A stretch of 30,526 bases of DNA, from IMG/VR virus record IMGVR_UViG_3300050821_008453, positions 1 through 30,526 of that record. One strand, written 5' to 3'. Of the stretch, positions 2 through 30,526 are shown in pieces. Position 1 is the stretch's first letter, and every line of letters starts with the position of its first letter. The notes beneath the pieces are model-generated. The model saw only the letters and a program-made list of their open reading frames with translations. It was not told where the DNA came from and did not search any database. Position numbers and translations under genes: made by a program. This DNA is from a virus.

Positions 2-1360
2 CCGGGAAATGCAAGAACACCGTGGGATGTGATCGGCCAATCTATTGGACAGAATGTTTCCCAAAATCTTCCTGGAGCGGTTCAGCAAGGCTTTCAGAGA
101 CAGACTGGGCTTAATGCTATTGATCAATTGCAAAGCGAATTGGCTAATGCTAATGGAGACATTACTAAAATACTTCCCGCGCTTGCAAGAGCTTATACGC
201 TAAATCCAAATCTTGAACGTTCAGGACTAGGACAACAATATCTTACTTTAGGTCAAAGAGGAAGAGGAGCTGAAGAATTTCCCGCGGGCAAGCCCAGAGG
301 GCCTACAAGACAAGAAGAAGGACAAGAGGTTCCCTTTTCTGTAAGAGATTTAATTCCTCCTAGACAACAAGGGATGATTCAAGATCCTTCTGGAGTGAAT
401 AGCTATCAATTGCCATATGGCCCCGAGGAAATTGCAGGTATTAGACAGGCCGCGAGACAGAAAGGATATGTTCCAGAAATGGAAGAACGTTTTGTAAATG
501 ACGCTCTAGAGTATAATAAAATTGCTCAAAATAAAAGAGATGTAGATCTACAAAACTATCAACAAGCTCAACAGCAAAGACAAGATACTCTTCAAAATCA
601 GGCTCTATTTACCAAATATCTCAATGACAATGCTCCCGAATTTGCTCAAAATCCAGACGAAAGAGAATTAGCTTTAAAAGCCTCTGAGAATTATCAAGGG
701 GAGACTTCTTTCGCTAATCGATTAGCGAAAGTGAAAGAAGAGCTTAGGCCTTATCAAGCAGCTAAAAAGGCATTAACAAAAACATTAAATCGCCCTCTTC
801 TCGGTCAAACAAAAGAACAAAGAGCGTTGGCAAGACCAAGGGCTCAAATGATGGTTGAGATGGGTCAGAAGCCACAGTTGCAGTTAATGATTGCTAATGG
901 AGGCAGCGGCGAAGTGGAGGAAGCAGATCTTTTAAATCCACTTCCAGAGTCATTTGAGGGTAACTTAAATAAGTTTAAGCGATTCATAACACCTCTTGAG
1001 GCTGTGTCAAACATAGATCCGGATTCTCCTGCTTATCAAAAACAACTTGAGGACGGCATAAGAAGAAGAGAATCGCAGAAAACTCATATGGGGGATTTTT
1101 TAGCAGATCAAATTTCTCCAGGCACCTACAAAAAGCCAGGAACGAATTTACTTTTAACAAGGTATCATCTTATGCAAAAAGGATTAGATTATACCGAAGC
1201 TGGGAAATTGATTGATGAGGCAATAGCAAAAGGAAAGATCAAGCTCGACCCTCAACAGCAAATCGACTCTCAAAAGTTAGCGTATCCTCCACTGACTGGA
1301 GATACATATTCAGATACCGTATTGAATAATCTACTATTCCCAATCACAGGAAGACAATAA
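2..1360 (+). CDS. Gln-rich virion-associated protein, 5' partial
   Basis: The frame is open to the left window edge. A GTG at 29 could start it, but in-frame codons run upstream (…TPWDVIGQSIGQ), so the gene is probably cut by the edge. The visible part is about 450 residues, soluble, rich in Gln, Arg and Glu, with no membrane segment. The N-terminal stretch rich in small residues and the pattern VQQGFQRQTGLNAI resemble internal or ejection-type phage virion proteins. That comparison is from composition and position beside other structural genes, not from a recognised domain. The stop overlaps the next start by one base (TAATG), so the two are probably translationally coupled. Exact function is unknown. 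Confidence 0.7.
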   Translation, partial: PGNARTPWDVIGQSIGQNVSQNLPGAVQQGFQRQTGLNAIDQLQSELANANGDITKILPALARAYTLNPNLERSGLGQQYLTLGQRGRGAEEFPAGKPRGPTRQEEGQEVPFSVRDLIPPRQQGMIQDPSGVNSYQLPYGPEEIAGIRQAARQKGYVPEMEERFVNDALEYNKIAQNKRDVDLQNYQQAQQQRQDTLQNQALFTKYLNDNAPEFAQNPDERELALKASENYQGETSFANRLAKVKEELRPYQAAKKALTKTLNRPLLGQTKEQRALARPRAQMMVEMGQKPQLQLMIANGGSGEVEEADLLNPLPESFEGNLNKFKRFITPLEAVSNIDPDSPAYQKQLEDGIRRRESQKTHMGDFLADQISPGTYKKPGTNLLLTRYHLMQKGLDYTEAGKLIDEAIAKGKIKLDPQQQIDSQKLAYPPLTGDTYSDTVLNNLLFPITGRQ

Positions 1361-2676
1361 TGACCGCATTATTGACAGCACTTGGATCGGGAATGTCAGC
1401 TAAAAAGATACTTGAATATCTTATGCGAAAGTCTCCTGAATTATCTCCTAAAATATCTACTGCCTTAGCTTCTGGAATATCAGCGGAAAAGCTTCTGAAA
1501 TTCTTTTCAAATAGTAAAAACTTTGAAAGGCTGAAAACATCTATGGAAGATGCATATCCAATGGAAACTAATGCGAATCCATTAGTTCAGGCAGAGAATA
1601 TTAGAGGACAGAATCTGGGAACAGATATGGCTTCTGGGTTACAACGTGCCACTCCTAGTATATTGGGAACTGTGGGAACAGTAGGATCTAGCATGGCTTT
1701 AGCACATGCATTACCTAATCTTCTAAAAGGTTCCATATCAGAAAGAATAGAAAAAAACCCAGAAACACCACCACCATCTCCTATTAATGATACAGGTATT
1801 ATACCACAGCCTATAACATCTCTGCAACCTGAAGAAAAAACTATAACTGATATTAAAGCGCCTCAGGATGTGTTATGGAACTCTTTACTTGAAAATTCCA
1901 AAAAGAAAATAAACCCGGAAATCGACGGATTCTTGAAGATTGCTAGGACAATGAAAACTACCGGAGAGATTACATCAAAAGAGGATTTTGATAAGCTTTA
2001 CAGTCTTTTCGAGCAAAAAAAATCAGAAGGAATGAGTCTTCCTAAAGCACTGAAAGAAGCCTCTAATGAGTTTGATAAACAGAAAACACAAACCGAAAAC
2101 AAGCCTATCTCCAAAAACGAGACTGTAGCCACTCCTCATGGCATAGGCGACGTTAAAGAGGTTAGAGGTGATAAAGCTATTGTCGACGTCGACGGAAAAC
2201 TTCACAAGGTCTCTTTGGATGAATTAGAGGCGTCGCCATTACCAGAGAAAGATTTAGCGGATCTATACGATGAACTTAAATCAGGAATAGAAAAAGCAAC
2301 AGATGAAGAAATGTCAAGGATGGTTGATTATGCTGGCTACGATCCAACAAAAAACACACTGGCGTTTTTGCCTTATACTGGTGGATTATATGTCTATGAG
2401 GATATTTCTCCAGAGGATGCTAACCTTCTTAGAAATGTCTTAAATGTACGAAAAACGAGTGGTGAAAATTTCATTGGTGTCTGGAAAAAAGATTCAAAAT
2501 CACCTATCGGATCGGCAATGTCTGCATTGATTAAAAAATTACAGGAAGAGCGAGGCGGAAAAGGAAAAGAATACTCTCATAAATTTGAGACTGTCTATAA
2601 ATCTCATGAGCCTGCTATTCTAGCTTCCAAAAAGAAAAAGACGAGGAAGAAAAATGAATCGACCTACCATCGCTAA
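1360..2676 (+). CDS. virion-associated protein with KTSC-like C-terminal domain
   Basis: 438 residues, coupled to the upstream gene by TAATG. The N-terminal part has two similar helical stretches around 'SGMSAKKILEYL' and 'SGISAEKLLKFF' (about residues 9-50). A small-residue hydrophobic stretch follows at about 100-125. The middle is Pro/Lys-rich and probably flexible. Residues about 325-395 ('TLAFLPYTGGLYVYEDIS', then 'RKTSGENFIGVW') follow the pattern of KTSC domains: a beta strand, Y-x-Y, a helix and K-T-S near the end. KTSC domains occur in many phage and bacterial small proteins and their role is poorly known. The Lys-rich tail overlaps a small ORF. A minor virion or ejection role is inferred from context. 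Confidence 0.65.
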   Translation: MTALLTALGSGMSAKKILEYLMRKSPELSPKISTALASGISAEKLLKFFSNSKNFERLKTSMEDAYPMETNANPLVQAENIRGQNLGTDMASGLQRATPSILGTVGTVGSSMALAHALPNLLKGSISERIEKNPETPPPSPINDTGIIPQPITSLQPEEKTITDIKAPQDVLWNSLLENSKKKINPEIDGFLKIARTMKTTGEITSKEDFDKLYSLFEQKKSEGMSLPKALKEASNEFDKQKTQTENKPISKNETVATPHGIGDVKEVRGDKAIVDVDGKLHKVSLDELEASPLPEKDLADLYDELKSGIEKATDEEMSRMVDYAGYDPTKNTLAFLPYTGGLYVYEDISPEDANLLRNVLNVRKTSGENFIGVWKKDSKSPIGSAMSALIKKLQEERGGKGKEYSHKFETVYKSHEPAILASKKKKTRKKNESTYHR

Positions 2677-2731
2677 AATTCTTCAATTTCTACAGAAAAT
2701 TGCAAAGAAAAAATCCAAGAAGAGGCCCTAG
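2654..2731 (+). CDS. 25-residue basic peptide (candidate)
   Basis: An ATG at 2654 lies 5-8 bases after GAGGAAG and opens a 25-codon frame (MNRPTIAKILQFLQKIAKKK…) in a different frame from the end of the upstream gene, which it overlaps by 23 bases. The product would be an amphipathic, strongly basic helix. The Shine-Dalgarno and coupling support translation; the short length does not. It ends where the convergent minus-strand gene ends. No function assigned. Confidence 0.35.
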   Translation: MNRPTIAKILQFLQKIAKKKSKKRP

Positions 2732-2916
2732 CGCTCGTAGATTATTTTCGCATATCCATCGGTTGCGCTATCTAATTCTATGTCTATAATTTTTGCTTTA
2801 TATTCTCTCTTTATTAATGCTAAATGGTCGTTGACGTATTGTTTCTTGCATACATCAAATTCCTTGGAAAATAAACTTACCGAACAAAAAATTAAAACGA
2901 TTGCATATTTTATCAT
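2728..2916 (-). CDS. small secreted or periplasmic protein
   Basis: 62 residues. The N-terminus MIKYAIVLIFCSVSLFSKEF is a typical signal peptide: Lys, then about 13 hydrophobic residues, then a cleavable-looking SLFS-K. The mature part is a short charged domain with one Cys. Start supported by AAGGAG 6 bases upstream. It is the last gene of a three-gene minus-strand group (DNA-binding protein, membrane coiled-coil protein, this one). No family recognised. A lysis or surface-exclusion role is possible but not shown. Confidence 0.6.
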   Translation of the reverse strand: MIKYAIVLIFCSVSLFSKEFDVCKKQYVNDHLALIKREYKAKIIDIELDSATDGYAKIIYER

Positions 2917-2919
2917 TTC

Positions 2920-3132
2920 TTACTCCTTGTGATGATTCATTAAATGTGCTTTAAATTCAGCATCCTGCCTTTCTAGCCGTCCATGGAAGTCTTTTATTTC
3001 CTGTCTAATGGCTTCTATCTGAGCGTTTACCATGGCTTCGAGATGCCTGTGATCTGCTCGTGATTCGGAGCGATTCCAAAAGAACATTCCGAAAACACCA
3101 CCACAAAATAAAATGAATTGTATCCAGTCCAT
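2920..3132 (-). CDS. small membrane-anchored coiled-coil protein ('KDFHGRL' family, copy 1)
   Basis: 70 residues: MDWIQ, one transmembrane helix (about 5-19), then a charged coiled coil ending in EIKDFHGRLERQDAEF. The same plan and the KDFHGRL motif occur in the products at 11002-11178 and 28615-28824, so this is a diverged member of a dispersed family. Start supported by GGGGAG about 6 bases upstream. It sits between a DNA-binding protein gene and a signal-peptide protein gene with gaps of 2-3 bases, so it is probably co-transcribed. Small anchored coiled-coil proteins can act in lysis (holin or spanin-like) or superinfection exclusion; neither is demonstrated here. Confidence 0.7.
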   Translation of the reverse strand: MDWIQFILFCGGVFGMFFWNRSESRADHRHLEAMVNAQIEAIRQEIKDFHGRLERQDAEFKAHLMNHHKE

Positions 3133-3134
3133 GT

Positions 3135-3383
3135 CTATCTCCCCGCTTTCGCTTCTAAATTCCTTATAATTGACGTGTGAATAGCCTCTATTTCCTTTTT
3201 AGATATTCTATAAGGACTTCTTTTGCCGCTACCTATCCGTATCGCTATGAGAAAACCCTTCTTCACTGCGCGCCTTATGGTGTTTTGGTGTACCCCGAAG
3301 ACAACGGCCGTTTCTTTGATCGTATAAAACTCTGAATTCACAGTCAACCTATCGATACTACTACAATAGTCATTATAAGGCAA
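3135..3383 (-). CDS. excisionase/MerR-like helix-turn-helix DNA-binding protein
   Basis: The core 'YTIKETAVVFGVHQNTIRRA' followed by 'GKRSPYRISKKEIEAI' is the winged-helix pattern of small excisionase-like DNA-binding proteins: the first helix-turn-helix, then R/K-rich wing residues placing a final helix. The longest frame begins with TTG at 3383 (82 residues). A GTG at 3341, preceded by AGG with 6-base spacing, gives 68 residues and starts just before the domain; I favour this as the real start. It is divergent from the tail-fibre gene across an AT-rich gap and could regulate that promoter. It could instead be an excisionase, but no integrase is visible. Confidence 0.7.
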   Translation of the reverse strand: MPYNDYCSSIDRLTVNSEFYTIKETAVVFGVHQNTIRRAVKKGFLIAIRIGSGKRSPYRISKKEIEAIHTSIIRNLEAKAGR

Positions 3384-3456
3384 TCATTGTTAATCGGGAA
3401 TATTTAAATTTTTAAATTTATATGCCATGGTGAGCTTTTCTAACAAGAGGTTTCAC
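3384..3456. promoter_or_regulatory. AT-rich divergent intergenic region
   Basis: Short gap between the minus-strand DNA-binding gene and the plus-strand tail-fibre gene. It holds the symmetric run ATTTAAATTTTTAAAT at about 3403-3418 and a TTGTTA upstream that could serve as a -35. The Shine-Dalgarno leader TAACAAGAGG (3441-3450) decides the tail-fibre start. Promoter boxes are not clear. Confidence 0.35.
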
Positions 3457-6183
3457 ATGACAAGCCCATTCATTCCTTCAAGTTTCACTTACGGCGATGC
3501 CCCACAAGGGGGATCAGTAATGCCAATGATTATAGCCGGAAGAAATCCAAGTAATACAATAGATAAACAGTATTTGTCCGGTTATTTTTGGCTTTCTGAT
3601 TTATTCCAAGGTGGTTCAGGTAATCTTTATGTTCAGTCGGGCAATAGCGCCGGACTTCCTAATTGGACTGCGGTAACTGCTGGTGCAGCTGGCGCGCTAA
3701 ATACATTATCAGATGGCGCGATCACTGTTTCTCCTACGGGCGGTAATATTGCCATTGTGGGCACCGCAAATCAATTGATGGTGACAGGTAACGCAGCCAC
3801 CCATCAGCTTGTTCTTGCACTACCTGCCGCGATTACCACTCCTGGATCATTGACAACCACATCCACTCTTACCGTAGGAACAAACCTAACAGTCAATGGG
3901 ACAATTACCGTAACAGGAGCGGAAACATTCTCTGGTAACGTAACAATTGGCGGCACTCTTGGTGTTACAGGATTAAGTACTTTTAATGGTGGTGAAACTG
4001 TCGTCGGAACGAGTCAAATTAACGTGACAGGAAATTCCAATACCACAATTGGCAATACATCTGGTTCAGGCGCTGTCACAATCAATACACCCTCCGGAAA
4101 CTTCTCCTTAACAGGTAATGGTAATACAGTCGGAATCGCCAATGATTCGGCAGCAAATATTGTGACCCTAGGCTCAACAACTACAAACGCTTCATTGACC
4201 CTACAATCAGGATCGGGAGGCAATACGGTAATTTCTGGTAATGTAGCAGCTTCTATATTAATTGGTGCAACAGCACAGACAGGAACGATCACTTTAGGAA
4301 GTAGCACAGCTGCCAATAGCGTCCTCATTCAAAACGGCATAAATACAGGCACACAAACGACAAGCATTGCCAATGGTGCAACAGCAGCAAATAGCACTGT
4401 AAACATATTGTCAGGAGTTGGAACGGCTGGGGTTGGAGTGTTGGCTTTGGGAAATAACCAACGCGTAACGACAATAGGATTAGGAAACGTGGCTCCAGCA
4501 GCTGCAAGAGTAACAACAATTGCCGGTGGTAATTCTGCACAAAATGATACGGTGAGCATATTAAATGGCGCTCCAAGTGCGAATACTCAAACATTAAACT
4601 TGATTAATGGCGCATCTTCTGGCGGAACTCAAGTAGTCAGCGTTCTTTCAGCAGCAGCGGCATCAACGGCCCAAACATTCAATCTATTCAATGGGGCCAA
4701 CACCAACACTACAAATACTATTAATATTGCTGGGTCTGGTGCGACAGGCACTTTAGTAACAACAAATATTAATACAGGTGCCGCAGCTCATGTGCTTAAT
4801 CTAGGCTCGACTTCAGGTGGAAATATTACAGCCACTCTAGCCGCAGGTAGTGCCTTTGCGGTTGCAGGGGGCACAACAACGACATTTAGCATTGGGGGAT
4901 CTTCTGTTACTACTGGCACATTGCTTTTGGGGGGGTCAGCACAGACCGGGGCCATCACCTTGGGGTCATCTTCTGGGGCAGCTAATAGCGTTCTAATAGC
5001 CAATGGCTCGGGCTCTACAACTGTTTCGATAGCCAACGTGACCACTACAGGAGCTACAGTCAACATTGCAGCGGCAGCGTCTATAGGAACAGCGCAAGCA
5101 GTTCACCTAATGGATGGTGCAACGCCTGGGGCAAGTCAAACGCTTACAATAATGAGCGGTGTCGCCTCAGCAGGAACACAATCAATCCAATTATTAGGCG
5201 GTGCAAATACAACAGGAAGTCAAAACTTCCAAGTATTTAACGGGGTTATTGCTGGTGCAACTGACACTATAAGTATGTTTAACGGTGCTATCGCATCAGG
5301 AACATGCACTTTAAATTTATTTAATGGTAATGCAACAGGTGGAACTTTAGTAGCAAACCTATTTGGCTCCGTAGCAGCGACAACAGCAGGGACAGTCAAT
5401 ATTAATACCGGAGCTGCTGCCCACGTTCTTAATGTCGGAAGTTCAAGTGGTGGAAACATCACATTCACACAGGCTTCAGGAAGTACATTTTCTATTGTTG
5501 GCTCTGGTGGAACTGTAAGTCTTGCCTCAGATGTTGCCAACAATACCGTCACTCTGGCAAATGGCCAAACAGGCGGTTCGTTAAATATTGCTACAGCAAT
5601 GACCACAGGTAATATTGCGATTGGATCAGCACAAATAGGCGGAACATTCTCTTTAGGCTCAACAGGGGCAAACACAGGCCTTGTAACCCTATTCGGTGGA
5701 ACAGGAGCGCAAACTTTGAATTTCGCTAATTCTACAGGGGTAAAAACTCTGTCGATAGCCACTGGAGCAGCCGCGAACCAAGTCGTATTAGGTTCAACTA
5801 ATACCACAGCAAAACTAACTCTACAAGCAGGGACAGGGGGATTGCTATTAACCGGCGGTCAAGTTGTTCCTGTAACAAACGTTAATAATGCCGCATCGCC
5901 TTATACAGTGTTAGGGTCTGATCAGTTTATCGCGGTTGACCCAACGGCTGGCGCAGTAACCATAAATCTTCCGAATACTCCTGCTGTAGGTCGGTATTTG
6001 GTTATTTATGACCAAACTGGCCAAGCTGGTGCACATACCATCACAATAACAACACCAGGAGCTAGTACAACAATTACTTCAGGTGGAACTTCAGCCACAT
6101 CCAAGACATTAACAACAGCGTTTCAATCAATGAATATATGGGCGACAGCATCTACAAGATATTCAGCTCAGATAATTACTTAA
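3457..6183 (+). CDS. long repetitive tail-fibre protein
   Basis: 908 residues from the ATG at 3457, chosen because TAACAAGAGG ends 6 bases upstream; an earlier ATG at 3427 has no such site. The N-terminal ~70 residues are non-repetitive and probably attach to the virion. The rest is dominated by Gly, Thr, Asn, Ser and Ala, with beta-strand-like repeats such as 'TINLFNG', 'TQ.V.I', 'GNTVGIAN' and 'LGS', typical of trimeric beta-structured phage fibres. Two well-conserved units (NINTGAAAHVLN…GGNI) occur about 633 bases apart. The C-terminal ~90 residues (from 'PYTVLGSDQF…AVTINLP') are a distinct domain common at the ends of phage tail proteins. Likely role: receptor binding. Several long antisense frames here are composition artefacts. 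Confidence 0.85.
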   Translation: MTSPFIPSSFTYGDAPQGGSVMPMIIAGRNPSNTIDKQYLSGYFWLSDLFQGGSGNLYVQSGNSAGLPNWTAVTAGAAGALNTLSDGAITVSPTGGNIAIVGTANQLMVTGNAATHQLVLALPAAITTPGSLTTTSTLTVGTNLTVNGTITVTGAETFSGNVTIGGTLGVTGLSTFNGGETVVGTSQINVTGNSNTTIGNTSGSGAVTINTPSGNFSLTGNGNTVGIANDSAANIVTLGSTTTNASLTLQSGSGGNTVISGNVAASILIGATAQTGTITLGSSTAANSVLIQNGINTGTQTTSIANGATAANSTVNILSGVGTAGVGVLALGNNQRVTTIGLGNVAPAAARVTTIAGGNSAQNDTVSILNGAPSANTQTLNLINGASSGGTQVVSVLSAAAASTAQTFNLFNGANTNTTNTINIAGSGATGTLVTTNINTGAAAHVLNLGSTSGGNITATLAAGSAFAVAGGTTTTFSIGGSSVTTGTLLLGGSAQTGAITLGSSSGAANSVLIANGSGSTTVSIANVTTTGATVNIAAAASIGTAQAVHLMDGATPGASQTLTIMSGVASAGTQSIQLLGGANTTGSQNFQVFNGVIAGATDTISMFNGAIASGTCTLNLFNGNATGGTLVANLFGSVAATTAGTVNINTGAAAHVLNVGSSSGGNITFTQASGSTFSIVGSGGTVSLASDVANNTVTLANGQTGGSLNIATAMTTGNIAIGSAQIGGTFSLGSTGANTGLVTLFGGTGAQTLNFANSTGVKTLSIATGAAANQVVLGSTNTTAKLTLQAGTGGLLLTGGQVVPVTNVNNAASPYTVLGSDQFIAVDPTAGAVTINLPNTPAVGRYLVIYDQTGQAGAHTITITTPGASTTITSGGTSATSKTLTTAFQSMNIWATASTRYSAQIIT
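4765..5505 (+). repeat. two long protein-level repeats in the tail fibre
   Basis: One unit starts near 4765 and a second near 5398. Both encode NINTGAAAHVLN(L/V)GS(T/S)SGGNI followed by Thr/Ala/Ser-rich sequence. The DNA of the two copies differs at many third positions, so the repeat is old and kept at protein level. Shorter units (LFNG, IxNGA, TGS) recur through 3880-5860. Confidence 0.7.
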
Positions 6184-13477: not shown

Positions 13478-14128
13478 TTATTTATATATATATTTGTACA
13501 CTGCTTTTATTTCATCAGAGGCTTTCACGTCCGCCGATCTTTTGTCTAGTTCAACAACTCCAAGGCCGAGAGAAGCGGCGTTGGCAAAGGCTTTTCTATG
13601 CCCCACGGTTGTGGGGATGCACTCAAATCGATTTGAAAGAAACTCGGCGGCATCGTCATTGTCATTGCCTTTACTATCTGCTTGATTAAGCAGAGTGTAT
13701 ACTTTCATGTCTGGATTGATGACTTGCATTTCATCCACTAATGATCTTAGATCTCCTAATGTCCATATATCCAAAGATCGCGGCCTAAAAGGAACAAGGA
13801 AGACATCAGCGATACTCATTGCAGAACGCTGAGAGGTAGTATCTCTTCCCCCCACATCAATGATGACGTCATCATAATCATGACTCACTCGCTTGACAGT
13901 GGCGTGTAGATTCTTTCCTGATAGTTCTATTGTTGGAAATTCTGTTGGTGTAACTTTTTCCTCGCGCTGTGACGACCATTGTGTAGCTGACTTCTGTTCA
14001 TCTGCGTCTATAAGTAGCACCCTTCCCTCGCTACACGATCTCATTACAGCTAGGTTGGTGGCGATCGTCGTCTTTCCACTTCCGCCCTTGATTCCTCCTA
14101 CTACTAGTATCATATCAATTTGCCTCAT
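13478..14128 (-). CDS. parA: ParA-family partition ATPase
   Basis: 216 residues. The deviant Walker A motif 'GGIKGGSGKTTIATNLA' (K-G-G-x-x-G-K-T, about residues 11-19) marks the ParA/MinD family. 'VLLIDADEQKSATQWSSQR' is the A' motif, 'DDVIIDVGGRD' is Walker B, and 'VPFRPRSLDIWT' with 'TLLNQAD' complete the fold. The short length, with no N-terminal DNA-binding domain, fits type Ib ParA proteins. An internal ATG at 14113 follows GAGG by 9 bases and could be the true start. ParA ATPases move or anchor low-copy replicons on the nucleoid. With the downstream ribbon-helix-helix gene this forms a partition cassette, and it heads the minus-strand operon. Confidence 0.92.
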   Translation of the reverse strand: MRQIDMILVVGGIKGGSGKTTIATNLAVMRSCSEGRVLLIDADEQKSATQWSSQREEKVTPTEFPTIELSGKNLHATVKRVSHDYDDVIIDVGGRDTTSQRSAMSIADVFLVPFRPRSLDIWTLGDLRSLVDEMQVINPDMKVYTLLNQADSKGNDNDDAAEFLSNRFECIPTTVGHRKAFANAASLGLGVVELDKRSADVKASDEIKAVYKYIYK

Positions 14129-14156
14129 TTTTGGTGTATTTCTGATATCGCTTTTG

Positions 14157-14200
14157 TGTCATTGTGACATCATTTTGGTATAATTGTGACACATATTATA
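14157..14200 (-). promoter_or_regulatory. parA promoter region with TTGTGACA repeats
   Basis: On the minus strand a perfect TATAAT lies at 14200-14195, with a weak TTGCTT 15 bases upstream. Just downstream are two direct copies of ATTGTGACA on the plus strand (14161-14169 and 14183-14191, 22 bp apart); the first is part of an inverted repeat TGTCA-TTG-TGACA (14157-14169). This placement over the transcription start fits autorepression by a partition protein or an XRE regulator. Confidence 0.5.
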
Positions 14201-14233
14201 TACCTCCCGAAAACAAAGCAAGGACAATCGAAC

Positions 14234-14272
14234 TTGATAAATTTAAATTTAAAGTATAGACTATGAGTAAAG
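14234..14272 (+). promoter_or_regulatory. candidate plus-strand promoter with GACT-N3-AGT operator
   Basis: TTGATA (14234-14239) is followed by an AT-rich spacer and TATAGACT; no spacing is ideal. The sequence TAGACTATGAGTAA around 14257-14270 is the reverse complement of CTCATAGTCTA at the promoter upstream of 21490, so both may bind one regulator. It would drive the three small genes at 14290-14801. Confidence 0.4.
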
Positions 14273-14289
14273 TAACACTACGAGGGAAT

Positions 14290-14442
14290 ATGCCATTATC
14301 CAAGGGCAAAAGCAAAAAAATCATCAGTAAAAATATCTCAGAAATGCGCCATTCGGGTCATCCAGAGAAACAAAGTGTCGCGGCGGCTCTCACTATGGCC
14401 AGAAGATCAGGAGCCAAGATACCAAAGAAAGGAAAAAGATAA
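14290..14442 (+). CDS. small basic conserved protein (MPL-K-G type)
   Basis: 50 residues from the ATG at 14290, preceded by GAGGG; an ATG at 14263 would add nine residues but has no ribosome site. The product begins MPLSKGKSKKIISKNISEMR and continues with G-H-P-E-K-Q-S-V-A-A-A-L. This is the pattern of a small family found in phages and bacteria (MPLKKGxSxKxISxNI…G…QAVAIAL). The family's role is unknown to me. It is strongly basic, which suggests nucleic-acid contact. Overlaps the next start by one base. Confidence 0.65.
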   Translation: MPLSKGKSKKIISKNISEMRHSGHPEKQSVAAALTMARRSGAKIPKKGKR

Positions 14443-14582
14443 TGGATAAGCAAATAAGAAAGCTTGAGAAAGTGGCTCAGAATGAAGTTAAGGGGCTGAA
14501 ATCACTTGAGAAGGCGGATAAGAAACGAGACAAATTTGTTGAAGCCGGGAAAAAAGTGATGAAAAAAAAAACAAGATCTTAA
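14442..14582 (+). CDS. 46-residue Lys-rich protein
   Basis: Begins at the TAATG junction with the previous gene. The product (MDKQIRKLEKVAQNEVKGLK…) is almost entirely a charged helix with many Lys and Glu, ending KKKTRS. It is short but coupled to a plausible gene and followed by another, so translation is likely. Such Lys-rich helices are common next to the MPL-K-G type proteins. Function unknown. Confidence 0.55.
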   Translation: MDKQIRKLEKVAQNEVKGLKSLEKADKKRDKFVEAGKKVMKKKTRS

Positions 14583-18729: not shown

Positions 18730-18999
18730 ATGACCCCGCGTCACTATATAAAAAATTTATCAACCATCGATCCCGATATCTGTAAAGACTCGAGACTTTC
18801 ATGGACGGCCAAAGGTATATGGTTATATGCGTTCAGCGTTGAAGAAGGCAGTGCGTTTCAAATCAAACATCTAATCAAAGCGAGCACCGATGACAAAGCT
18901 TCGGTTATAGCAGGATTGCTTGAACTAGAAGCTTGCGGCTATCTTTTAAGAAAAGGCGACACACTTCATTTTCGTTCAAATCCTGAAGGAGGTGTGTAA
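18730..18999 (+). CDS. winged-helix replication-associated protein
   Basis: 89 residues; AACAAGAGG lies upstream of the ATG. 'RLSWTAKGIWLYAFSVEEGS' followed by 'FQIKHLIKASTDDKASVIAG' and 'LLELEACGYLLRKGD' is the winged-helix seen at the front of phage replication proteins (R-L-S-x-x-A-K-G … L-x-E-L-E-x-x-G-Y-L). It ends at a TAATG junction with the next, longer winged-helix gene and shares its strong AAGGAGG site. The pair may act together at the origin. A transcriptional regulator is the alternative. Confidence 0.65.
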   Translation: MTPRHYIKNLSTIDPDICKDSRLSWTAKGIWLYAFSVEEGSAFQIKHLIKASTDDKASVIAGLLELEACGYLLRKGDTLHFRSNPEGGV

Positions 19000-19847
19000 T
19001 GGTATACGCACCTAACACATTTCAAACACCAAATGATCTTGTCGATCATTGGTTACCTCAACTTGGCGAAGCAGAGGTCAAAGTGCTACTTGTTGTCTTT
19101 CGGAAGACTTTTGGTTGGAATAAAACTCGCGATCGAATCTCCCTTTCTCAGCTTAAAAAACTCACGGGATTGACCACAACGAACGCTATTAAAGCCGCTC
19201 GATCCCTATCCGAAAAAGGGATAATCCAAAGAGAGGTGACCGGAAAAAAGGGAACGCAAGAGACTTATTATGAACTGGTTGTCTTGGAACAATCAAATAA
19301 TTCTTACCAGTCCTGCAAAGAGACCCCCCCCAGTCCTGCAAAGAGACCCCCCCCAGTCCTGCAAGAGGACTCACAAAACACACTTATACAAAACACACTT
19401 AAACAAAAAACAACGACAACCCCTACCCCTTCGCAGTCCAAGTCCGAGCCAGTCGTCGTCGTTTCTTCTTCGAAGAAAGAGAAGAGCACTGAAGAGCAGA
19501 TCGCGGTAGACGCCATCTCCCTCAAAGAGCAGCTCAATATGCGCATCGCAGCTTATACGCCTAGGAGGGTGAGAGTTGGCAGGGAACTCGTTGAGGAAGA
19601 GTGGCCTAAGGAATGGGATATACCCGTACATGTATTTTATACTTTGGTTGAATTATACGGAATGGCTTACGTCTGTGAGCAGTTGACCTACATGTGGAAG
19701 CAGCAACGCGCTCACGACACAGGAAAAAGCAAGAACCCCGTCAAGAATCCATCCTCTTATATCGCTTTGGCCTGCAAACACAATTACGCCAACCACAAGC
19801 CAGTTAATGATAAGTATAGTGGGGATATACCAACCAACAAGAGATAG
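18999..19847 (+). CDS. phage replication initiator (O-like), carries iterons
   Basis: 282 residues. Residues about 6-90 ('TFQTPNDLVDHWLPQLGEAE', 'VFRKTFGWNKTRDRISLSQL', 'LTGLTTTNAIKAARSLSEKG') form the winged-helix N-terminal domain of phage O-type replication proteins. Residues about 103-165 are Pro/Gln/Thr/Ser-rich, low-complexity sequence encoded over DNA direct repeats. The C-terminal ~90 residues ('EEWPKEWDIPVHVFYTLVEL … MWKQQRAHDTGKSKNPVKNP') are folded and may recruit a host helicase, by analogy with lambda O. AAGGAGG precedes the start, which overlaps the upstream stop by one base. No helicase loader is seen. Confidence 0.78.
   Translation: MVYAPNTFQTPNDLVDHWLPQLGEAEVKVLLVVFRKTFGWNKTRDRISLSQLKKLTGLTTTNAIKAARSLSEKGIIQREVTGKKGTQETYYELVVLEQSNNSYQSCKETPPSPAKRPPPVLQEDSQNTLIQNTLKQKTTTTPTPSQSKSEPVVVVSSSKKEKSTEEQIAVDAISLKEQLNMRIAAYTPRRVRVGRELVEEEWPKEWDIPVHVFYTLVELYGMAYVCEQLTYMWKQQRAHDTGKSKNPVKNPSSYIALACKHNYANHKPVNDKYSGDIPTNKR
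19307..19412. repeat. candidate replication origin: 23-bp iterons plus AT-rich direct repeats
   Basis: Copies of CCAGTCCTGCAAAGAGACCC start at 19307, 19330 and 19353, exactly 23 bp apart; the third diverges after CCAGTCCTGCAA. Because 23 is not a multiple of three, the copies are read in three frames (QSCKETPP, SPAKRPPP, VLQED). This indicates selection on DNA, not protein. Immediately after come two copies of CAAAACACACTTA (from about 19374) and an A-rich run. Iterons inside an initiator gene next to an AT-rich stretch is the layout of lambdoid origins. Confidence 0.65.
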
Positions 19848-21489: not shown

Positions 21490-21945
21490 ATGAAATGGTC
21501 TCTACAGTCGCGCAAGATTAAAGATCTCAAGGCGCATCCAAAAAACCCCCGCAAGCTCACCAAGGAGCAATATAAGCAATTGGGTGAATCGATTGCTAAA
21601 TTCGATCTAATAGACAAGCCCATTGTCAACCACGACAATACCATCATAGGCGGACACCAACGCATCGAAGTCCTTAAGAAAAATAAGGTATGTCATGTGG
21701 ACTGCTGGGTACCAGATGAACCAATACAAGAAAAAGATGTCGAAGAACTCATGTTACGCCTCAACCGCAACCATGGTGAGTTCGACTACGATATACTCGC
21801 TAACTCATTCGAAGTACCTGATCTAATCGATTACGGCTTCACCGTCACAGAGATGGACCTATTATTAGAACACGTCGAGACAGAAGAACAAGAACCAACA
21901 AAAAAGAAAAAGAAGGAATGCCCTAATTGTGGATACGCAGCTTGA
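21490..21945 (+). CDS. ParB/Srx-domain protein with C-terminal zinc ribbon
   Basis: 151 residues. The N-terminal ~110 residues hold the ParB N-terminal fold: 'KIKDLKAHPKNPRKLTKEQY', then 'FDLIDKPIVNHDNTIIGGHQ' with the G-G-H-Q-R motif, then 'VEELMLRLNRNHGEFDY'. It lacks the helix-turn-helix and dimer domains of true ParB and ends in 'KKKECPNCGYAA', half of a zinc ribbon. Such short phage proteins usually lie beside terminase or methylase genes and may be nucleases or CTP-dependent DNA clamps. It starts the packaging-side gene run and is far from parA, so it is probably not its partner. Confidence 0.8.
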   Translation: MKWSLQSRKIKDLKAHPKNPRKLTKEQYKQLGESIAKFDLIDKPIVNHDNTIIGGHQRIEVLKKNKVCHVDCWVPDEPIQEKDVEELMLRLNRNHGEFDYDILANSFEVPDLIDYGFTVTEMDLLLEHVETEEQEPTKKKKKECPNCGYAA

Positions 21946-28112: not shown

Positions 28113-28113
28113 T

Positions 28114-28185
28114 CTCCGGATGCATGATTCGAACATGCGACCAATGGATTAACAGTCCACTGCTCTACCACTGAGCTAATCCGGA
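28114..28185 (-). tRNA. tRNA-Asn (anticodon GTT)
   Basis: Folds as a full cloverleaf on the minus strand: a 7-bp acceptor TCCGGAT / ATCCGGA (28185-28179 with 28121-28115), D stem GCTC / GAGC, anticodon loop CTGTTAA giving GTT, and T arm GCATG-TTCGAAT-CATGC. The discriminator is G (28114) and no CCA is encoded. All stems are paired, so it should be functional. Confidence 0.95.
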
Positions 28186-28219
28186 ATATGACATGTTTTT
28201 ATTTCTTCTGTTAATAGGA

Positions 28220-28986: not shown

Positions 28987-29700
28987 ATGAGTTTAACAGA
29001 ACAGACCCAAACACCTGAAATGGTCGCCCAGGCTGAAGAAACCCATGAAAAGAAGTCTCCGCAAGAGAGTTTTGCGGAACTTCGAAAGGCCAAAGAAGAC
29101 CTAGAGAGGCAACTATGGCAAGCAAAAAAAGAGCGCGAAATTGAGCAACAAATGCTGTTGCAACAGCACGCGAAAGCTCAGCCCGCGCAGGAAGATGATT
29201 TCGATTACAAACAGCTAGAGCAAGAAGAATTCCCTGACGGGAAGAAACTTGTTAAAGCTTTTGGTGCGATAAACAAGAAAATGTCGGACTACGAGCAGAA
29301 GCTGGTTGATAAGGAAGTTAAAATCCAGTCTTTAGAGTTTGTTGTAGATAACCCTGACTTTAAACAGGTCGTCACGGCTGAAAATATTGAAAAATATATT
29401 AAAAACGACGAAGACAATCGCGAAGCTGTAGAGAAATCGTCGAATCCTTTGAGAAAGGTTTATAATCTTATCAAGAAAAGCGCCGCCTATCAAGCTGATA
29501 TTTCAGCTAGTGCCGCGAAAAGTAAATCATCTTCTCAAGAGCAACAAAGAGTCGATGAAAAGGAACAGAAGCCAAAGACTGGAAGCTTAGGAGTCAGATC
29601 CGAAGCGGTAACAGTTGCGGCTAAACTATCCAATTCAAAGATGACTAAAGAGCAGAAATCAGCTCTTTGGAAAGAAACGATGACCGCAGCCCGTCGATGA
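28987..29700 (+). CDS. head scaffolding protein
   Basis: 237 residues, charged and helical, with AAAGGA 6-9 bases before the ATG. Coiled coil at about 25-60 ('FAELRKAKEDLERQLWQAKK') and 95-115, and a short helical C-terminus ('MTKEQKSALWKETMTAARR') of the kind that binds coat protein in P22-like scaffolds. It lies directly before the capsid gene, as scaffolds do. It would guide capsid assembly and leave the procapsid. Sequence similarity to a named family cannot be checked here. Confidence 0.75.
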   Translation: MSLTEQTQTPEMVAQAEETHEKKSPQESFAELRKAKEDLERQLWQAKKEREIEQQMLLQQHAKAQPAQEDDFDYKQLEQEEFPDGKKLVKAFGAINKKMSDYEQKLVDKEVKIQSLEFVVDNPDFKQVVTAENIEKYIKNDEDNREAVEKSSNPLRKVYNLIKKSAAYQADISASAAKSKSSSQEQQRVDEKEQKPKTGSLGVRSEAVTVAAKLSNSKMTKEQKSALWKETMTAARR

Positions 29701-29727: not shown

Positions 29728-29835
29728 ATGTCAGGCCCGACAACAACCAATATTCTGCCACCTGCTGTACAACAGCAATTGAGCATGAAACTATTGGCTC
29801 GTCCTATGCCAGACTTGATTCATACTACGATGGGT
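29728..29835 (+). CDS. major capsid protein, exon 1 (interrupted by intron)
   Basis: The ATG at 29728 follows the scaffold gene and encodes MSGPTTTNILPPAVQQQLSM…, then KLLARPMPDLIHTTMG. This matches the N-terminus expected of P22-like coat proteins, where a T/N-rich start leads into L-L-x-R-P-x-P-x-L-I-H. Read straight on, the frame meets TAG at 29842. I place the exon end after T29835 because that T can form the conserved U-G pair of group I P1. Only about 36 residues are visible; the rest of the gene lies past the window. A truncated pseudogene is the alternative if splicing does not occur. Confidence 0.75.
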
Positions 29836-30510
29836 AAACAATAGGGATTGCTCATCTAAAATTTGACTATATGCTGGAAACTCCTAAAGCTTTCTGGTAC
29901 ACTGATTTGTTGTGCATATTATCAGTGTGAAAATCCAGGAGATATTACAATGGACTATCAGCAGGAAAGGCTCGATTTAGATAAGGCATGGTTTGCAGGA
30001 GTTTTTGAAGGAGAAGGATCATTTTCCTTAAGTGTTAATCGACGAATTGAAAGAGGAAAGGATAAAATTAGATTTTTTCCTTTTTGTTGTTTAACAAATT
30101 CCGATGTGACCATGATTAATGAGATTGAAAGAATTCTTATGTTACACGAAATCAAATATTATAAAGCATTTCGGGGAAAAAGACATGAGCATTATAAAAA
30201 TCTTTGGCATATCCAAATAGGTGGAATGACTCGATGTATTGAATTTATCACTTGGATTTTACCTTTCATTAGAGGTGAAAAAAAACTTAAAGCCGAAAAA
30301 CTTTTAAATTTATGCAAAATTAGAATGGCAAAAATGACAAAGTTTTGGGGAGTTCCATATAGTGATGATGATATACAATTGATAAATGAAATCAGAGGAA
30401 TGCAAAAATCGGGAATCCTCAACGACTTTACGTCAAACACTGAAAAGTGAAGATAAAGTCTGAACATACGTGAGAGCGTATGAGGAGGGAATAACAAGAC
30501 CTCCCGCCAG
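29836..30510 (+). ncRNA. group I intron with endonuclease ORF
   Basis: By eye the core pairs are: P1 GATGGGT (29829-29835, exon end) with GCTCATC (29850-29856), including the U-G splice-site pair; P3 TTTGAC (29862-29867) with GTCAAA (30432-30437); P4 CTGGA (29874-29878) with TCCAG (29934-29938); P5 ACACTGAT (29899-29906) with ATCAGTGT (29921-29928); P7 GACTTT (30424-30429) with AAAGTC (30455-30460); P8 CACT-GAAA-AGTG (30438-30449); P9 CATACG / CGTATG (30465-30470 with 30477-30482). A GGAGG / CCTCC stem follows. The 3' end is provisionally after G30510, giving an open frame Y-N-H-E-F; this end is uncertain. Confidence 0.85.
29950..30450 (+). CDS. LAGLIDADG homing endonuclease (intron-encoded)
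   Basis: 166 residues from the ATG at 29950, 8 bases after GGAG; a longer frame from 29863 runs through the P3-P5 RNA core and is less likely. 'WFAGVFEGEGSFSLSVNRRI' is the LAGLIDADG helix and active acid (about residues 15-30: G-V-F-E-G-E-G). Only one such motif is clear, so it would act as a dimer, or a second motif is degenerate. Other blocks: 'FFPFCCLTNSDVTMINEIER', 'FRGKRHEHYKNLWHIQIGGM', 'KAEKLLNLCKIRMAKM'. Single-motif enzymes cut intronless alleles and spread the intron; some also aid splicing. The stop lies inside P8 of the ribozyme. Confidence 0.92.
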   Translation: MDYQQERLDLDKAWFAGVFEGEGSFSLSVNRRIERGKDKIRFFPFCCLTNSDVTMINEIERILMLHEIKYYKAFRGKRHEHYKNLWHIQIGGMTRCIEFITWILPFIRGEKKLKAEKLLNLCKIRMAKMTKFWGVPYSDDDIQLINEIRGMQKSGILNDFTSNTEK

Positions 30511-30526
30511 TATAACCATGAATTTC

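Follow-up and report, generated by a model that had tools for sequence, protein, structure and literature searches.

Group I introns within phage capsid genes have been described before. In mycobacteriophage LittleE, the major capsid gene contains a probable group I intron that carries an open reading frame (ORF) related to LAGLIDADG, and splicing was established by RT-PCR and protein sequencing (PMC3706429). In the Delta and Zeta groups of crAss-like phages, the major capsid protein gene is split by several group I introns, with five ORF fragments in one genome (PMC7886860). The lactococcal phage Tuc2009 carries a group I intron in its major head gene. Two or three group I introns per gene are reported for the DNA polymerase and terminase genes of Bastillevirinae (PMC11878797) and for Twort, cited in the same paper, and engineered trans-excision-splicing ribozymes use a group I core to excise a short segment by means of P1, P9.0, and P10 (PMC4094466). 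The original prediction for the locus described here considered capsid insertions to be less commonly reported, a remark to be tempered by the reports on LittleE, Tuc2009, and crAss-like phages. Since multi-intron capsid genes (crAss-like phages) and singly interrupted ones (LittleE, Tuc2009) are known, the hotspot presented below extends a known phenomenon. Indeed, a capsid intron by itself is of a known kind; what is not ordinary is the infestation of multiple sites, the tails encoded by unspliced introns and a coreless insert, all of which were found in relatives of the phage under study.

The stretch of DNA analyzed, hereafter the window, is a virus record of 30,526 bases. Direct reading from position 29,728 on the plus strand confirms that the capsid frame stops after 38 codons, of which codons 1–36 (29728–29835) constitute exon 1. 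The corresponding 36-residue peptide, MSGPTTTNILPPAVQQQLSMKLLARPMPDLIHTTMG, is conserved at 92–100% identity in about 43 related phage contigs, which were fetched by similarity to the portal gene of the window (best segments 74–86% identical). In uninterrupted relatives, the frame runs on after HTTMG as YPITMDQQAGDILRRRRYQNL... (MG/YPITMDQQ, the slash marking the junction) to a total of 320 amino acids, the nucleotide junction with exon 2 being GGT/TATCCC. Because intact and interrupted alleles coexist within one phage group of 75–86% identity, the junctions are known exactly, and the relatives fix the 5′ splice site after GGT, in phase 0, precisely where it had been placed from the window alone. 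An intact homolog matches PHROG 1357 (major head protein; E = 2e-28) and, below the cut-off, Pfam Phage_capsid_4 (E = 9e-4), with no other family found. The PHROG match and the continuation of the frame in relatives therefore identify the gene as a major capsid gene and not a P22 coat gene, and the initial label “P22-like coat” is incorrect: the portal, which matches P22_portal with E = 3.5e-58, is the only P22-like part.

The ORF that immediately precedes the capsid gene (28987–29700, plus strand) has no family match and probably codes for the scaffold protein, given its position between the portal and capsid genes. A tRNA-Asn gene (anticodon GTT; 28113–28186, minus strand) lies between the same two genes on the opposite strand. 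Elsewhere, the window codes for ParA-like (13481–14128, minus strand) and ParB-like (21490–21942, plus strand) proteins and for an O-like replication initiator (18999–19844); in view of the partition proteins and of this initiator, the phage possibly persists as a plasmid. For the large ORFs of 443, 438, and 918 amino acids located at 29–6180, PHROG yielded nothing at E below 0.001. None of 84,980 scanned prokaryote genomes yielded a relative of the capsid, hence neither a prophage nor a host was found.

From 29836 to the end of the contig at 30526 (plus strand), the window very probably contains a group I intron with a LAGLIDADG ORF that splits the major capsid gene and whose 3′ end is cut off, a reading that draws on a covarying core and on introns inserted at the same site in relatives. 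The roughly 700 bases following the junction align with introns located at the identical position in seven contigs (L015, L023, L048, L007, L077, L029, and L044), with 67–79% nucleotide identity over the aligned parts. P1 pairs exon bases AUGGGU (29830–29835) with the guide GCUCAU (29850–29855); the U·G pair predicted at T29835 is retained, and P1 forms in all ten introns compared at this site (site 108, numbered on the capsid coding sequence). The 5′ strand of P3 (29862–29867) pairs with 30432–30437, with three double-changed pairs across the ten introns; P7 (30424–30428 with 30456–30460), the 3′ strand of P3 and P8 (30438–30441 with 30446–30449) are supported by covariation and occupy 30424–30460, followed by the P9 hairpin (30465–30482; five double-changed pairs) and a P9.1-like hairpin (30484–30504) deduced from folding and from alignment to relatives. 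Across the ten introns, 97.9% of the cells of P1, P3, P7, P8, and P9 are paired, vs. 28–44% in slid controls, and double-sided changes affect 12 of the 28 core pairs, compared with 2.8 ± 1.3 in shuffles (none of 500 reaching this value); they occur in P3, P7, P8, and P9, not in P1. The claim that every core helix can be paired, P4 included, is borne out for these five, with P5 (CUCCU, 29882–29886, with AGGAG, 29937–29941; read directly) as a tentative candidate.

The Rfam group I model (RF00028), suggested as a check alongside the original prediction, matches 30334–30482 with E = 2e-4, at a score of 26.1 bits that stands below the gathering score of 50, a curation threshold and not a structural feature. 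The long ORF splits the core. The introns of relatives also match this model below the cut-off. A hidden Markov model (HMM) of the 3′ core built from introns of the group matches the window at 30417–30494 (E = 2e-5).

In relatives that reach the junction, site-108 introns extend 20–70 bases further than the window does before a terminal G and exon 2 (TATCCC...). The window breaks off in a variable 3′ hairpin of the intron, so that the terminal G, the 3′ splice site and one more hairpin would be located past its right end; a coat frame had been expected after 30510, and none is present there. The length of the intron, initially estimated at about 675 bases, is revised from relatives to about 700–740 nucleotides. 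Three other placements were discarded. MAFFT paired ATAACCATGAATTTC with exon 2, which was taken as chance, and a 3′ splice site near 30488 (yielding TRPPASITMNF) was dropped, as relatives have 40–70 more intron bases before the junction in both cases; a 5′ splice site after T29842 would leave P1 without its U·G pair and disagrees with the GGT junction of relatives. An exact scan with the last 23 bases of the window found no overlapping contig.

The intron contains a putative LAGLIDADG homing-endonuclease ORF of 166 amino acids (29950–30450, plus strand) bearing the motif WFAGVFEGEGSF. This ORF matches Pfam LAGLIDADG_1 weakly and below the cut-off (E = 0.01) and PHROG 5046, annotated “HNH endonuclease” (E = 8e-10), and shares 42–50% identity with the ORFs of site-108 introns in relatives, including that of L015 (46%), which passes the Pfam cut-off. 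Searched alone, it found no relative in viral contigs and a single weak phage match. It had been assigned to the P6/P8 part of the intron; more exactly, it begins at ATG 29950, past the P5/P6 region, and ends with a stop codon that overlaps P8. The AGGAG of the P5 candidate is also the Shine-Dalgarno sequence of the ORF, and its pairing with CUCCU in a P5-like helix may limit translation of the endonuclease from the folded intron RNA. When the intron, with its ORF deleted, is folded to minimum energy, AGGAG pairs with another strand and not with CUCCU.

Exons and core covariation are read from the sequence; splicing and homing are inferred. The intron RNA would fold and, with guanosine, cut after U29835 at the U·G pair of P1, and GGU would then be joined to the UAUCCC of exon 2 beyond the contig. 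The LAGLIDADG protein would cut intronless capsid genes, into which the intron would be copied. It is plausible, as originally proposed, that splicing efficiency limits virion production. An insertion that had simply broken the gene, or an assembly artifact at the end of a contig, would also yield a window that breaks off within the intron and lacks exon 2. Yet 31 other contigs have the same junction, and those long enough to reach the downstream exon contain it with its frame open; the ribozyme core also covaries and exon 1 is conserved, all of which makes a dead or artifactual insertion extremely unlikely and favors a spliced group I intron.

In relatives, spliced alignment of distinct capsid genes located introns at at least 11 sites of the 960-nucleotide coding sequence (108, 235, 262, 293, 312, 315, 353, 399, 435, 546, and 645), the region of the mini-insert (codons 87–98, see below) being set by pattern; the capsid gene would therefore appear as a recurrent target of these elements. 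Large introns are present in 42 of 54 full capsid genes, with one in 19 genes, two in 12, three in nine and four in two, the 12 remaining genes having none. Additional sites lie near codons 8 and 177 in more distant relatives. On a tree of 53 genes, intron presence changes 14 times at site 108, seven times at 315, nine times at 399 and seven times at 435, a scattered distribution that fits a mobile element spreading by homing, and nine of ten scanned intron ORFs resemble LAGLIDADG families, in some cases with scores under the cut-off. The 3′-core HMM, whose first round was seeded with nine introns and found 69 of 92 and whose later rounds include its own matches, recovers all 88 introns uncut by a contig end and has one match outside capsid genes, itself adjoining a capsid-gene fragment; because it was trained on capsid introns, unlike introns located elsewhere could be missed. 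In L069 (3447–3847), a group I core located about 5 kb upstream of the portal gene borders a piece of another capsid gene and looks like a relic of capsid-gene transfer.

Translation that continues from an exon into an unspliced intron up to the first in-frame stop generates what is called here a read-in tail. In the window, reading stops at once (MG/KQ-stop, TAG at 29842–29844), without an Ala-Ala tail, as in most introns at the same site: 30 of 31 stop within two codons, and none of the 31 ends in Ala-Ala-stop. By contrast with site 108, 53 of the 58 distinct introns located at codon 78 or beyond, leaving aside site 293, encode a tail ending in Ala-Ala-stop and all 58 a tail ending in Ala-stop, although these introns share ancestry and the 58 tails are thus not 58 independent events. 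The residue at position −3 is L in 36 tails, I in nine, K in seven, M in five and Q in one (e.g., LLAA, LIAA, AMAA, EHYALAA; L125:1178–1380 and the site-315 intron of L013 are examples of introns with such tails). In controls, Ala-Ala-stop was found in 1 of 93 tails read in other frames, at 1 of 195 later stops of the same frame and in 0.33% of shuffles. The pattern is strong within the clade and patchy beyond. On the one hand, more distant capsid genes of L144 (two sites) and L205/L239 follow it, and the experimentally spliced introns of the LittleE capsid gene (L171) and of the Baka tail gene (L172), homologous to each other with retargeted guides, read into -TAAA-stop and -LAAAAA-stop. On the other hand, it fails in a distant capsid clade (L215, L219, and L222), and read-in of the T4 td and nrdB introns yields no such tail. 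In L127, from the same contig as L178, an intron at about codon 8, upstream of a capsid match at 6001, stops at once, yet an unused CTCCTCGCGGCATAG (LLAA-stop) persists in its P5 loop, probably as a leftover of relocation from a late site.

One could argue that GCNGCNTAR is a motif needed by the ribozyme, its in-frame reading being a by-product of RNA structure. The tails of L125 at site 235 and of L021 and L069 at site 435, together with the single site-293 tail, coincide with the conserved 3′ strand of P6, an RNA core motif, so that these three late-site tails may themselves be incidental, and many other tails sit in the P5 loop of the common core. However, the same core is present at sites 108 and 293, and GCNGCN-stop occurs in the first 150 nucleotides of 55 of 60 late introns vs. 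1 of 31 introns at site 108 and 1 of 20 at site 293, where it is too scarce to be an RNA motif common to these introns. Moreover, it is in frame in 55 late introns and out of frame in one, its position varies among introns (P1 loop, P5 loop, P6 or mini-insert), and the tails use 20 different strings of penultimate, last and stop codons. A structural by-product is therefore unlikely, and the data point with high probability to selection for Ala-Ala-stop in the introns of relatives.

The SsrA (tmRNA) tag places a C-terminal -LAA on truncated proteins, which is a signal for ClpXP and ClpAP. We consider it likely that the read-in tails act as an SsrA-like degron on truncated capsid protein, and the simplest interpretation of the pattern is that such a C-terminal degron is selected where the truncated product reaches a harmful length. 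Translation of unspliced RNA would terminate at in-frame stops just inside the introns: a stub of 36–38 amino acids would be released at early sites, including that of the window, and a read-in peptide from codon 78 or beyond, ending in -(L/I/M/K)AA, would most likely cause removal of half-made capsid protein. A literature search, with most subscription papers outside its reach, found no work linking group I introns with a degron, SsrA or ClpXP.

In 21 relatives, an insert of only 36–51 nucleotides at coding position 262 (codon 87; GATTGGT/AYGG) has the ends of a group I intron and a length into which no catalytic core fits (L074, at 14033–14459, and L007, L020, L025, L031, L041, L050, L051, L055, L056, L070, L077, L079, L105, L107, L109, L113, L116, L117, L137, and L167). 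When retained, this mini-insert always brings an in-frame stop. Its guide GCCAATC pairs with exon GATTGGT, U·G included, in 20 of 20 aligned copies, its terminal G is present in 21 of 21, and a P10 of 4–6 base pairs covaries with the exon (ATGG/CCAT in seven, ACGG/YCGT in 14). The 3′ part of the insert and the 31-nucleotide mini-exon that follows form a covarying hairpin; the structure contains 23 double-changed cells vs. 6.1 in shuffles, and sequences folded individually reach z = −2.8 to −3.7. In all 21 contigs, a complete group I intron follows 31 nucleotides downstream, at coding position 293; it can be as short as 198 nucleotides and has a P1 and in most cases a P10 of its own. The most compact arrangements are those of L113 and L116, with a mini-insert of 39–40 nucleotides and an intron of about 200. 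Neither element was found in the capsid genes examined beyond these 21. On the gene tree, the two elements change state together 16 times and are never separated, which tight linkage over 31 nucleotides could alone explain. Beyond capsid genes, the mini-insert pattern mostly gave chance matches.

We regard it as quite likely, based on these sequence patterns, that one ribozyme core, that of the downstream 293 intron, removes the mini-intron too. This core would excise it via the second guide, in the manner of engineered excision-splicing ribozymes. Introns at site 293 are always preceded by a mini-insert that carries the tail, and 19 of 20 have none of their own; a tail contained in the mini-insert and not by the 293 intron suggests that the former is not removed well before the latter. 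Alternatively, ribosomes might skip the insert as in the bypassing of T4 gene 60, which would agree with its stable hairpin and with the presence in 21 of 21 contigs of one Asp codon for take-off (GAT) and another for landing (GAY). This is improbable, as a GAT-to-GAY bypass would remove a conserved Trp-Tyr, and the P1 with U·G, the covarying P10, the terminal G and the neighboring group I intron also speak against it. The insert could also be a decaying intron remnant in phages that produce no working capsid. A full intron at 262 exists in L012 only, where it carries an endonuclease akin to those of the 293 introns, and the insert could derive from it; however, the persistence of the insert in 21 contigs with covarying pairs and the constraint on third positions of the mini-exon (0.81 vs. 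1.48 bits) speak against decay, which we deem very improbable. Excision by the neighboring core is the reading retained here.

The site census and tail statistics also come from the sequence, degradation and mini-intron excision being inferred. Taken as a whole, we lean toward a built-in quality control, in which late-site introns would encode an SsrA-like degron that destroys truncated, potentially assembly-poisoning capsid protein, with one core in some phages also excising a coreless mini-intron. If introns do tag for degradation what is made when they are retained, they would be more than neutral passengers, as this device would limit the harm done to the host gene and would help explain how selfish introns survive where a partial product should poison capsid assembly. 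To our knowledge, the mini-intron would be the first natural case of a group I ribozyme removing a second intron without a core of its own, which would bear on how introns could become dependent on outside machinery.

Compared with known systems, the tails of relatives resemble the SsrA tag by their hydrophobic-Ala-Ala C-terminus; the SsrA tag is added by trans-translation, whereas here the tag would be intron-encoded and translated from the message itself. LittleE shares an intron in the major capsid gene and has a read-in tail ending in three alanines, on which the accessible part of the report makes no remark; it differs by another capsid family, a single intron and an endonuclease encoded on the opposite strand (PMC3706429). 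Tuc2009 has an intron at an early codon of its capsid gene, where translation soon stops without an Ala-Ala-stop tail, in an unrelated capsid with one intron. The crAss-like phages are different phages in which introns and inteins are spread over many genes, and the available text describes neither a read-in tag nor a coreless insert (PMC7886860). The introns of Bastillevirinae and Twort lie in other gene classes, with no coreless partner described in the accessible portion of the source (PMC11878797). Finally, trans-excision-splicing is engineered, acts in trans and removes up to 28 nucleotides (PMC4094466), whereas the mini-intron would be natural, 36–51 nucleotides long and would carry its guide within the excised piece.
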